From NCBI RefSeq assembly GCF_016629525.1, contig NZ_AP024269.1, positions 3,782,001 through 3,846,000 on the forward strand: 64,000 nt of DNA, written 5' to 3'. The notes below the pieces were generated by a model. The model searched no databases and was not told the origin of the DNA. It saw only the letters and a program-made list of their open reading frames with translations. The translations under genes were made by a program, and so were the position numbers. Below, one piece after another: positions 9,406 through 45,365 of this stretch (position 1 is its first letter; the number at the start of each line of letters is the position of its first letter). This stretch comes from Kaistia sp. 32K (GTDB taxonomy: Bacteria; Pseudomonadota; Alphaproteobacteria; Rhizobiales; Kaistiaceae).

Positions 9406-10578
<1,173 letters not shown>

Positions 10579-10653
10579 AGTCTATCCTCACAGATAGTAA
10601 GCGCCTCGTTGGGGAGGCGTGTCCCGCCGACGCGTTTACGCCTGGGCCGGGAC
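10579..10653 (-). promoter_or_regulatory. serC leader: three tandem hairpins
   Basis: Reading toward serC, three hairpins follow each other: GTCCCG...CGGGAC (10621-10653), CGCCTC-CCCAAC-GAGGCG (10602-10619) and CTATC-TGTGAG-GATAG (10582-10597). The last one contains the ribosome-binding site GAGGA and ends 4 bases before the ATG. Placement and the CCCAACGAGGCG loop fit the 'serC' leader motif described upstream of serC-serA in Alphaproteobacteria. Occlusion of the ribosome-binding site by the last hairpin suggests translational control; the ligand is unknown. Confidence 0.6.
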
Positions 10654-10733: not shown

Positions 10734-11528
10734 TCAGTTGAACTGGTAGCGGATGCCGAAGTTCACGTCGTGCGAGGTGATGTTCTTGAACTGGAAGCCG
10801 TCGTTCGGACGCGAAAAGGCCGGGTTGATGTTGTAGGCCGTATCGGTCTTGGCGTTGCCGAGATCGACATAGGAATAGCCGAGATCGAAGATCAGATTCT
10901 CGGTGACCTGGAAGCCGAGGCCGGCATGCAGGGCCCAGGCGAAGTTCCACTGCGATGCGGAGCCGGCATAGCCGCCGGCGTTCAGCTCGTTGTTGACGTC
11001 GCGGAAGTCCGAGATGGTGTTGCGCGACGCGCCGATGCCGGCGCCGACATAGGGCGTGATGCCCCTGTAGGTGCCGAGGTCGACATAGCCGTTGGCAAGG
11101 AACAGCCACTCCGACTTGCGCGCCGTGTAGTCGTCCGTGAAATAGCCCGGCAGATTGGGATTGATCGTGTTGGTCACGCGCTGCGCGGCAGAGAAATCCG
11201 CCTTGCCGCGATACTGGCCGGTCAGGTCGGCGCGGAACCAGTCGTTGAACTTGTAGCCGGCGCCGAGGCTGAAGGTCGGGGCGGCCGAGAAATCGCCGTC
11301 GTTCATCCAGTCGGTGACGTAGCCCGGCTCGTTGAAATACTGGTAGTCGAGGCTGCCGAGCTGCTGGTTGCTCATGCCGATGGCGCCGCGCAGATACCAG
11401 CCGCCGACGGCGAGCGGCACCGGCTCGACATAGGGCTCCAGATCCGCCGCGACAGCCGAGCCAGCGAAACCGCCGCTGACGCCCGCCGCGATCGCCAGGG
11501 CGATCACCATGGTCCGCGAAGTGTTCAT
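10734..11528 (-). CDS. Outer-membrane beta-barrel protein (Omp25/Omp31-like family)
   Basis: A 264-residue exported protein. Residues 1-27 are a signal peptide ending at AVA/ADL. The mature part alternates short amphipathic strands ('GGWYLRGAIGMSN', 'SLGAGYKFNDWFRADLTGQY', 'GITPYVGAGIGASRN', 'LHAGLGFQVTENLIFDLGYSYVDLG') and ends with the aromatic-rich strand 'NFGIRYQFN', as expected for insertion by the Bam machinery. This is the small eight-stranded barrel family abundant in Hyphomicrobiales. A perfect CtrA consensus lies about 80 bp upstream of the ATG. It is transcribed alone, with a strong terminator. Confidence 0.9.
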   Translation of the reverse strand: MNTSRTMVIALAIAAGVSGGFAGSAVAADLEPYVEPVPLAVGGWYLRGAIGMSNQQLGSLDYQYFNEPGYVTDWMNDGDFSAAPTFSLGAGYKFNDWFRADLTGQYRGKADFSAAQRVTNTINPNLPGYFTDDYTARKSEWLFLANGYVDLGTYRGITPYVGAGIGASRNTISDFRDVNNELNAGGYAGSASQWNFAWALHAGLGFQVTENLIFDLGYSYVDLGNAKTDTAYNINPAFSRPNDGFQFKNITSHDVNFGIRYQFN

Positions 11529-11607: not shown

Positions 11608-11623
11608 TTAACATTGGATTAAC
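11608..11623 (+). promoter_or_regulatory. Perfect CtrA-consensus box upstream of the outer-membrane protein gene
   Basis: TTAA-CATTGGA-TTAAC matches the CtrA consensus TTAA-N7-TTAAC at all nine positions on the plus strand. On the minus strand, the direction of the gene, it matches at eight. It lies 80-95 bp upstream of the ATG at 11528, in an AT-rich stretch that stands out from its surroundings. CtrA binding is inferred from the known motif. Confidence 0.6.
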
Positions 11624-32145: not shown

Positions 32146-32309
32146 GGTGGCGAGCCACGATGGGCCGATGGAGTGATCGATCCCGGGAACCTACAGCGTA
32201 GGTGGGCGCCGTATGTCCGGAACCAGGGCTCCGGTCAGGGACAGCTCCCTTTTGGATCGATAAGGCCCCGGGGAATTGTGATCTCCTGTCGCACCGCGCA
32301 GCCTCGCCG
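32146..32309 (-). ncRNA. ssrS: 6S RNA
   Basis: Regulates transcription by mimicking an open promoter and sequestering the housekeeping RNA polymerase. It sits between zapA and 5-FCL on the minus strand, as in other Alphaproteobacteria. The ends pair (GGCGAG near the 5' end with CTCGCC near the 3' end). An inner stem ATCGATCC/GGATCGAT closes the central region, and 'GGAGCTGTCCCTGACCGG' and 'CATACGGCGCCCACCTACG' type blocks follow the alphaproteobacterial 6S pattern. A promoter -10 (TATATT, 32316-32321) lies just upstream. Ends are approximate to about 5 nt. Confidence 0.85.
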
Positions 32310-44393: not shown

Positions 44394-44921
44394 CTACTCG
44401 CGCCCGCCGCCAAAGGCGCGCGCCAGCTGGCCGAGCTGGCGGCTGACCGGGTTTTCGGCCGGCGCGTCGGCGTTGGCGGCGTTGTAGATGGCGTCGTCGA
44501 GGCGGATCACGCGTTCCTGCAGCCGGACCGAGCGGCCGATCAGGTCGCGCAGCCGCTCCGGCAGGTCTTCCCAGCCCGGCCCCTCGGCGATGGAGCCGAA
44601 GCCGCGCAGCCGCACCTTGGCCTTCTCGGCGCCGGCCTGCTCGAAGGTCATCTCGCCCTCGTTGACCGCGCGCTGCAGCAGCAGCCACGAGGCGAGCTGC
44701 ATCAGCCGCGTCGTCAGCCGCATCGATTCGGTGGCGTAGGTGAGCGAGCCGCCCTTGGGCAGGTCGCGCGATTCGACGCGGCCATCGCCATCGAGATAGG
44801 CGGCGGTCTCCTCGACGAGCAGCATCCCCTCCCGGAAAAGTCCGCGGAAGGTGTCCGAATACGCGAAGCGCTGGCCGAATACGATCGGCGCGTCGACGGG
44901 CCCAGGGCTGTCGTCTGTCAT
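44394..44921 (-). CDS. rcdA: RcdA-family (DUF1465) regulator of CtrA degradation
   Basis: In Caulobacter RcdA is an adaptor that, with CpdR and PopA, delivers the cell-cycle regulator CtrA to ClpXP. This 175-residue protein matches the DUF1465 family: 'FGQRFAYSDTFRGLFREGMLLVEETAAYLDG', 'ATESMRLTTRLMQLASWLLLQRAVNEGEM', and 'LPERLRDLIGRSVRLQERVIRLDDAIYN'. These helices form the three-helix bundle. ATG at 44921 chosen over a GTG eight codons upstream. A candidate small RNA and a CtrA-like box lie upstream on the same strand. Confidence 0.88.
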   Translation of the reverse strand: MTDDSPGPVDAPIVFGQRFAYSDTFRGLFREGMLLVEETAAYLDGDGRVESRDLPKGGSLTYATESMRLTTRLMQLASWLLLQRAVNEGEMTFEQAGAEKAKVRLRGFGSIAEGPGWEDLPERLRDLIGRSVRLQERVIRLDDAIYNAANADAPAENPVSRQLGQLARAFGGGRE

Positions 44922-45013
44922 GGAATCATTCCGTTGCGTCAACACGTCAATCCCGAGCGGGTTCAGACGGAACGCAAGTTTTGCCGATTTTGACGCCTAT
45001 GAAGACGGAAGTC

Positions 45014-45102
45014 AAAAAAAGAGCCGCGGGAAACGGCTCTTGTGAGGCAACAGAGGGAGGAGTCCAACAGAGAAGTTACCACTCACGTCCAGATCGCTGG
45101 AC
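45014..45102 (-). ncRNA. Candidate ~89-nt small RNA with CUCCUCCC loop
   Basis: On the minus strand three hairpins follow one another. The first is GTCCAG-CGAT-CTGGAC (45087-45102). The second is a stem GTGAG..GTAAC / GTTGC.CTCAC whose ~23-nt loop carries CUCCUCCC (45055-45062), the complement of a Shine-Dalgarno sequence. The third is an intrinsic terminator, AGAGCCG-(7 nt)-CGGCTCT with a seven-T run (45014-45040). A possible -10 (TAATCG, 45107-45112) and a CtrA-like box (45126-45140) lie upstream. CUCCUCCC-loop small RNAs are a known alphaproteobacterial type. It could also be the processed 3' UTR of the DUF1192 mRNA, whose stop is 72 nt upstream. Confidence 0.55.
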
Positions 45103-45125
45103 GAAACGATTACGCGCCCCTAACC

Positions 45126-45140
45126 TTAACGAATGGTTAA
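45126..45140 (-). promoter_or_regulatory. CtrA-like box upstream of the small-RNA candidate
   Basis: TTAA-CCATTCG-TTAA on the minus strand (next base G) matches TTAA-N7-TTAAC at 8 of 9; the plus strand also matches at 8 of 9. It sits about 14 bp upstream of the putative -10, where CtrA-activated promoters carry their box. Confidence 0.5.
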
Positions 45141-45173: not shown

Positions 45174-45365
45174 TCAGCTCTTGAAGAACGACGAAGCCGC
45201 CGCGCGCGACGCCGTTTTCGCCTCGATCGCCTCCCGCAGCCGCCCGATCTCGCCCTCCAGCAGGGTGATCCGCTCATTCAGTTCGTCGATCGACAGGCGC
45301 CCCAGATCCTCGCCGATCCTGTGTGGCGCCGGCTTTTCCACCGGCACGTCGTCGAATAGGGCCAT
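45174..45365 (-). CDS. DUF1192 small protein
   Basis: A 63-residue acidic helical protein: 'MALFDDVPVEKPAPHRIGEDL', then 'LSIDELNERITLLEGEIGRLREAI' as a short coiled coil. It matches the alphaproteobacterial DUF1192 family, of unknown function, often found beside rcdA-like genes. It is divergent from the quinone oxidoreductase, 109 bp away. The terminator at 45014-45040 may serve it as well as the small-RNA candidate. Confidence 0.85.
   Translation of the reverse strand: MALFDDVPVEKPAPHRIGEDLGRLSIDELNERITLLEGEIGRLREAIEAKTASRAAASSFFKS

Follow-up and report, generated by a model that had tools for sequence, protein, structure and literature searches.

What lies in the gap between a DUF1192 gene and rcdA in Kaistia sp. 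32K: a control region of one of these genes, or a gene in its own right? We addressed this question in a 64,000-nucleotide stretch of contig NZ_AP024269.1 (positions 3,782,001 to 3,846,000; hereafter the window), where an earlier note, written from the letters alone, had proposed a CtrA-controlled small RNA (sRNA) with an anti-Shine-Dalgarno loop. By its sequence, the element (45014..45140, minus strand) belongs to the BjrC1505 RNA family (Rfam RF02356) as a diverged member; the homology is itself sub-threshold, and the assignment rests on intermediates and synteny. The DNA displays homology, structure, a conserved box, a conserved segment, and occurrence apart from rcdA. We consider it reasonably probable that the locus is an sRNA gene of this family that is activated by CtrA and whose RNA acts in trans, its CUCCC letters blocking ribosome binding on mRNAs. 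The earlier proposal is partly confirmed as an observation and partly supported as an interpretation: the sRNA call holds, an RNA of an old and widespread family very probably being made here, and its anatomy is redrawn.

The features of the locus are as follows.

45174..45365, minus strand: gene for a DUF1192 protein (Pfam match, PF06698, E 5e-22)
45126..45140, minus strand: CtrA-type box TTAACCATTCGTTAA (TTAA-N7-TTAA; pattern match, conserved in relatives)
45107..45112, minus strand: putative -10 element TAATCG; relatives have TATTA/TATAA-like letters about as far from their box
45014..45103, minus strand: predicted sRNA of ~90 nt, a diverged RF02356 BjrC1505 member by homology, its 5' end placed by promoter spacing
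45087..45102, minus strand: stem-loop 1, GUCCAG-CGAU-CUGGAC, with two-sided changes in all 5 pairs counted family-wide
45073..45084, minus strand: possible remnant of stem-loop 2, GAGU-GGUA-ACUU, read by eye and degenerate in this subclade
45046..45072, minus strand: conserved segment and proposed seed, single-stranded in the family consensus, holding the anti-Shine-Dalgarno letters CUCCUCCC at 45055-45062
45014..45041, minus strand: intrinsic terminator with a 9-pair stem and seven Ts (fold and letters)
44987..45015, minus strand: separate promoter-like site for rcdA, TTGACT-N17-CAAAAT, beginning inside the T run of the terminator
44394..44921, minus strand: rcdA, encoding DUF1465/RcdA (Pfam match, PF07323, E 1.6e-56)

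On this strand the DUF1192 gene is followed by the box, TAATCG, a hairpin, a pyrimidine-rich stretch with CTCCTCCC (45062-45055), the terminator, the promoter-like site, and rcdA. The two Pfam matches bear out the neighbours named in the note, and its TAATCG, its GTCCAG/CTGGAC hairpin, and its seven-T terminator are all in place on the minus strand. Measured against shuffles, the terminator piece has a folding z of -5.7 and the entire RNA one of -3.2.

Family membership and structure of the RNA

Is this RNA a known one? The element aligns to RF02356 over its full length with 34.4 bits (E 5.9e-5; permissive search, 401 nt). This score is under the cut-off of 50, and the element is therefore missed by standard annotation; a gathering-level Rfam search of the window returned only a 6S RNA and a serC leader. 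Hence the claim that no such RNA is annotated is right for this member, which falls under the threshold, but not for its family, which exists in Rfam. The covariance search that the note proposed, aimed at cuckoo/CUCCUCCC families, led to BjrC1505 instead. The element is the sole RF02356 match in the 5.35-Mb genome. Across 41 genomes, our own included, RF02356 matches occur in 33 and exceed the cut-off in 28. A locus of the same genus (L015) scores 79.7 bits and has the same DUF1192-RNA-rcdA order, and above-cut-off intermediates at the same locus connect the element to the family.

With BjrC1505 (named after Bradyrhizobium japonicum) the element shares a full-length alignment, a matching stem-loop 1, the CCUCCC segment, and the GAGCCG terminator. 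It differs in scoring below the threshold, in stem-loop 2 (GAGUGG/CCACUC in RF02356), which has decayed in the window and in five close relatives, and in a segment 2 nt longer: for the family's CCUCCC segment the element has UCCUCCCU, with CU inserted after it. R1, our own model, was made from an alignment of 68 RNAs that came in part from genomes later tested; it gave a single match in the element's own genome (62.2 bits). At the S. meliloti locus, the RF02356 model alone gave 27.2 bits (E 0.2). The first ~45 positions of that model fall on the CtrA-type box and the promoter, and probably represent DNA control sequence rather than RNA.

The founding paper of the family is reportedly Madhugiri 2012. 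In the literature we found no function for BjrC1505, which is named in a table of Herbaspirillum predictions, and the literature searched gave no S. meliloti name for an RNA of this type. The RNA family is already known; as to its link to CtrA, no earlier report was found among the listed titles and abstract starts.

Do the stems covary? We used a MAFFT alignment of the 68 sequences, many of whose rows had been found by the segment and terminator rather than by their stems. Paired cells amounted to 93.2%, compared with 86.5% in shuffled and 39.6-54.5% in slid alignments, and 68 cells were changed on both sides, compared with 16.5 in shuffles; on neither measure did any of 500 shuffles score as high. 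Eleven pairs carried two-sided changes (7.9 in shuffles, equalled in 6 of 500), and such changes fell in all 5 pairs of stem 1 and in 5 of the 6 pairs of stem 2. Both 5' stem-loops covary. Five of the seven terminator pairs never vary and are therefore uninformative on this point.

The second hairpin that the note had drawn, with CUCCUCCC in its loop, gained no support. It appears in the minimum-energy fold of this single sequence, but a 56-nt piece containing it is no stabler than shuffles (z +0.57), and in the six closest sequences none of its pairs shows a two-sided change, 75.9% of its cells are paired, and 7 of its 10 pairs depart only through unpaired cells. In the wider family, this position is taken up by a local stem-loop and by a CUCCC segment that stays single-stranded. 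Of the two stems in which the note had looked for compensatory changes, stem-loop 1 has them and the second hairpin, in these six sequences, does not. Two further candidates were rejected: a small GAC...GUU hairpin that the Rfam structure would imply, unsupported at 74.8% paired cells versus 75.7% in shuffles, and a short peptide in stem-loop 2, whose GTG-to-TGA frame is found by eye in some members and not kept in others.

Distribution and the CtrA-type box

How widely does the RNA occur, and is it tied to rcdA? By tblastn, rcdA was found near the RNA in 27 of 31 loci (not found in L007, L011, L021, and L022). A pattern made of the segment and the start of the terminator recovered at least 118 named loci. 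Among the matches listed are Mesorhizobium, Phyllobacterium, Bosea, Devosia, Roseibium, Stappia, Hyphomicrobium, and others, plus Sneathiella; among these same matches, 108 of 119 hits had rcdA downstream on the same strand, 6 were without it despite at least 900 nt of room, 5 had no room, and DUF1192 was found upstream in 55 (tblastn), a count that is low because the protein is short. Since the pattern forces an invariant segment, we re-chose the loci by the rcdA protein alone, which avoids the circularity. rcdA was present in 56 of 61 order-level genomes, and model R1 placed the RNA upstream of it in 49 of the 55 besides our own: all 29 best-scoring loci, L227, and 19 of the remaining 25 (L439 weak, 28.9 bits). 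The same model found the RNA in S. meliloti, Shinella, and Methylobacterium, and none at the DUF1465-bearing loci of a Sphingomonas and an R. leguminosarum plasmid.

At class level, rcdA was present in 49 of 142 genomes. The RNA was clear at 5 of the 29 class-level rcdA loci besides that of the window (including L227, of the same order), cut at the locus end at 1, and weak at 1. Class-wide, model R1 matched 60 of 289 genomes at E <= 1e-3 (rough E-values); RF02356 matched 30 of 289, with 13 above the cut-off, and none of 14 control genomes. Within the genus, 11 of 14 genomes hold the RNA, and three loci (L156, L158, and L159) are natural losses. G040, G041, and G250 each have two or three RNA matches; G040 and G041 are without a DUF1465 match.

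The RNA is also found away from rcdA. Three of the six order-level genomes that lack it at rcdA (G031, G033, and G039) have it on another contig (RF02356), RNA and rcdA lie on different contigs in G120 and ~41 kb apart in G081, and G040 has two RNA copies and no DUF1465 match. Copies without rcdA in the examined stretch, together with the contig split of G120, point to independence from one neighbour gene, as would be expected of a trans-acting sRNA.

Perhaps, then, the box belongs to the RNA gene? TTAA-N7-TTAA occurs twice in the window (11608 and 45126) where 0.03 would be expected, so the CtrA-like box of the note is present above chance, and it is conserved in relatives. For 114 hits, 150 nt of the preceding DNA could be examined; the hits had all been found without it. 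The best box was exact in 78, had one mismatch in 35, and had two in 1; the fractions of exact and one-off boxes were 0.000 and 0.003 when random places of these loci were taken, and 0.007 and 0.059 in shuffled upstream DNA. Its start lay 79-85 nt before TGACG in 87 of 101 hits (non-redundant set), and -10-like letters stood 26-31 nt past the box start. Among the order-level loci chosen through rcdA, 48 had room for a box, and 46 of these carried one with at most one mismatch (exceptions L206 and L434). Of the 29 model R1 loci examined besides the window's, 17 showed no rcdA within the stretch; at 15 of them such a box was kept with the RNA. Two of the 17 have less than 200 nt of 3' room, three are from one genus, and in L273 rcdA follows ~1.5 kb on, just outside; the two copies without a box may be chance hits.

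A conserved TTAA-N7-TTAA at the -35 region is what a CtrA promoter would present, and the genome carries ctrA itself (G000:C1:3761030-3761701, 423 bits). We propose that CtrA would bind the box, which overlaps the -35 region, and activate transcription; RNA polymerase would start just 5' of stem-loop 1 and stop at the strong terminator after ~90 nt. We infer CtrA binding and activation, and cell-cycle timing with them, from the box. Kept also without an adjoining rcdA, the conserved box gives an Rfam family for which we found no function a concrete, cheap hypothesis. If this is true, the cell-cycle circuit, whose known targets are mainly proteins, would gain a deeply conserved RNA, and the CtrA sites that chromatin immunoprecipitation (ChIP) and transcription start site (TSS) studies place near rcdA may in part be those of the RNA rather than of rcdA. 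We see about an even chance of something broader: that this RNA, switched on by CtrA, has since ancient times served the CtrA regulon as a post-transcriptional output in much of Alphaproteobacteria, and that in Hyphomicrobiales it is kept beside rcdA, a CtrA proteolysis factor, with RNA making and CtrA removal encoded side by side.

The other exact box of the window (11608-11622) lies ~80 nt upstream of a minus-strand open reading frame (10734-11528) that is outer-membrane-protein-like, and is possibly another CtrA site.

The CUCCC segment, its possible targets, and rival readings

What might such an RNA do? The frequency of CTCCTCCC alone is unremarkable at this composition (1 found, 3.8 expected), and its weight therefore rests on conservation. 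CUCCC is kept in 48 of the 49 order-level loci chosen by rcdA, CUCCCUGU in 45, and GACGCCUCCCUGU in 40, which upholds the anti-Shine-Dalgarno segment of the note. The likeliest action, judged from these letters, is that the exposed segment would pair with GGGAG-type Shine-Dalgarno (SD) sequences; acting in trans on at least one mRNA, the CUCCC would block ribosome binding. Both the action in trans and the repression of translation we infer, the latter from the segment. In L160-L163, of the same genus, the CUCCC segment is expanded in some members to repeated CCCU-type units; the proposed seed thus changes fast there, though it is nearly fixed elsewhere.

Pairing sites before ATG were sought in 41 genomes. 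Among the matches listed, AACAGGGAGG was found 72 times and its permuted control ACAAGGGAGG 69 times; leaving out double-listed sites and the RNA gene of G332 itself, the counts among these matches were 70 and 66. In the 30 loci of each that were examined, there were open frames of at least 100 aa at 20 test and 16 control loci, and transporter binding proteins made up by eye ~6 of the 20 and ~4 of the 16, which is no specific enrichment. Judged by eye, transporter binding proteins are frequent among the strong-SD genes of both the test and the control loci, so an RNA with a general anti-SD action would probably encounter their mRNAs. GGGAGGCGTCA stood before ATG in 14 matches from 12 of the 41 genomes, one of them the G332 RNA gene, and the 44 loci examined for the two patterns yielded no more than two pairs of proteins related to each other (25% and 28% identical). 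Pairing with the 5' regions of ctrA had a mean z of -0.16 in 14 genomes (-0.08 in 15, counting the misplaced G343), and pairing with those of gcrA one of +0.12 in 18 genomes; these tests took the loci with the RNA segment in our table (15 of 27 and 18 of 29), with single-base shuffles as controls.

The near-equal counts of AACAGGGAGG and its control and the ctrA and gcrA scores weigh against a CtrA-activated, trans-acting repressor, and so do several other results. The window's own segment has diverged from that of the family. The RNA is absent from 6 of the 55 order-level rcdA loci (L420, with 720 nt of room, L432, L435, L438, L442, and L443). In 3 of the 15 boxed copies without rcdA, the spacing between box and RNA is shorter than usual (-17, -20, and -28). 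A box with at most one mismatch lies within 400 nt at 6 of 24 class-level rcdA loci without clear RNA (L236 included), compared with ~7% of control stretches, which means that such boxes can also serve rcdA. Finally, L158 (one mismatch) and L159 (two) keep a box-like sequence despite the loss of the RNA. At L156, RNA and box are both lost, and the rcdA promoter-like letters TTGACTTCC and AAAATC are kept. On balance, the box appears to go with the RNA more than with rcdA, though not exclusively.

Could the element be a genuine sRNA that works mainly through protein binding or general titration instead of specific mRNA pairing? Conservation that exceeds an SD-sized core, as the 40 loci with GACGCCUCCCUGU show, would fit this, as would the failure to find a conserved target. 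However, the target tests made here were narrow, and PMC3927594 reports that the anti-SD motif is needed for binding the target ribosome-binding site in several RNAs, AbcR1 among them. We regard this possibility as unlikely.

Alternatively, the element might be a cis-acting leader or attenuator of rcdA: a CtrA-driven rcdA transcript would begin here, and the terminator would set read-through. That it stands almost always in the same place before rcdA within the order (49 of 55) is consistent with this, as are the box-like sequences that persist at rcdA in L158 and L159. In PMC4433202, CtrA is found by ChIP-Seq at the S. meliloti rcdA promoter region, but rcdA expression is reported as unchanged on CtrA depletion, though a second TTAA-N7-TTAA box lies between the terminator and rcdA there (L193, 2339-2353), as it does in Shinella (L195). 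PMC3616915 and PMC10469942 describe CtrA motifs ahead of the S. meliloti rcdA TSSs and, in A. fabrum, a possible CtrA site upstream of atu3742. Some of these published signals could come from the RNA's box; the second box in S. meliloti and Shinella leaves room for both readings. Against a leader stand the 15 of 17 copies that keep the box without rcdA in the stretch, the distant or missing rcdA of G120, G081, and G040, and the promoter-like site that rcdA has for itself after the terminator. TTGACT-N17-CAAAAT was found once where 0.0 would be expected, and reading by eye finds its letters TTGACTTC and AAAATC again in the closest relatives, and also in L156. We judge a leader to be quite improbable.

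It is very improbable that the element is simply the 3' untranslated region of the DUF1192 transcript, ending in its terminator and next to an incidental box: it does lie on the same strand a short distance downstream of that gene, but the promoter region is conserved along with the RNA and has -10-like letters at a fixed distance, the stems show covariation, and DUF1192 was found upstream in only 55 of the 119 listed hits (an undercount, given the short protein). A separate sRNA with its own promoter region and terminator, as the note had it, is supported by homology, covariation, and the conserved box.

Comparison with known RNAs and other features of the window

Cuckoo-type RNAs, which we take SmelA075 and SmelA099 to be, resemble the element in their exposed anti-Shine-Dalgarno letters (CCUCCUCCC loops). 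However, every one of their three or four hairpin loops carries CCUCCUCCC, according to PMC3927594, whereas here there is one copy, single-stranded in the consensus. Membership in the cuckoo or CCUCCUCCC group, which the note had suggested, was rejected: there is only one CUCCUCCC, its supposed hairpin is unsupported, and no Rfam relation was seen. The only related Rfam match, to suhB/mmgR, had 13 bits (E 4.6) and was rejected as well.

EcpR1 (SmelC291) is likewise an alphaproteobacterial trans-RNA tied to the cell cycle, but it lies at a different locus, in Methylosinus beside rpmG (PMC12403871), and identity with it was set aside. AbcR1/AbcR2 share anti-Shine-Dalgarno pairing, stated for AbcR1 in PMC6234868, but Rfam gives no AbcR family match in the element. 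PmaR was discarded: it is reported to lie on the circular chromosome and to be limited to Agrobacterium and one Rhizobium strain.

Elsewhere in the window, the two RNAs recovered by Rfam are both on the minus strand: the 6S RNA at 32149-32307 (74 bits) and the serC leader at 10577-10629 (67.5 bits).
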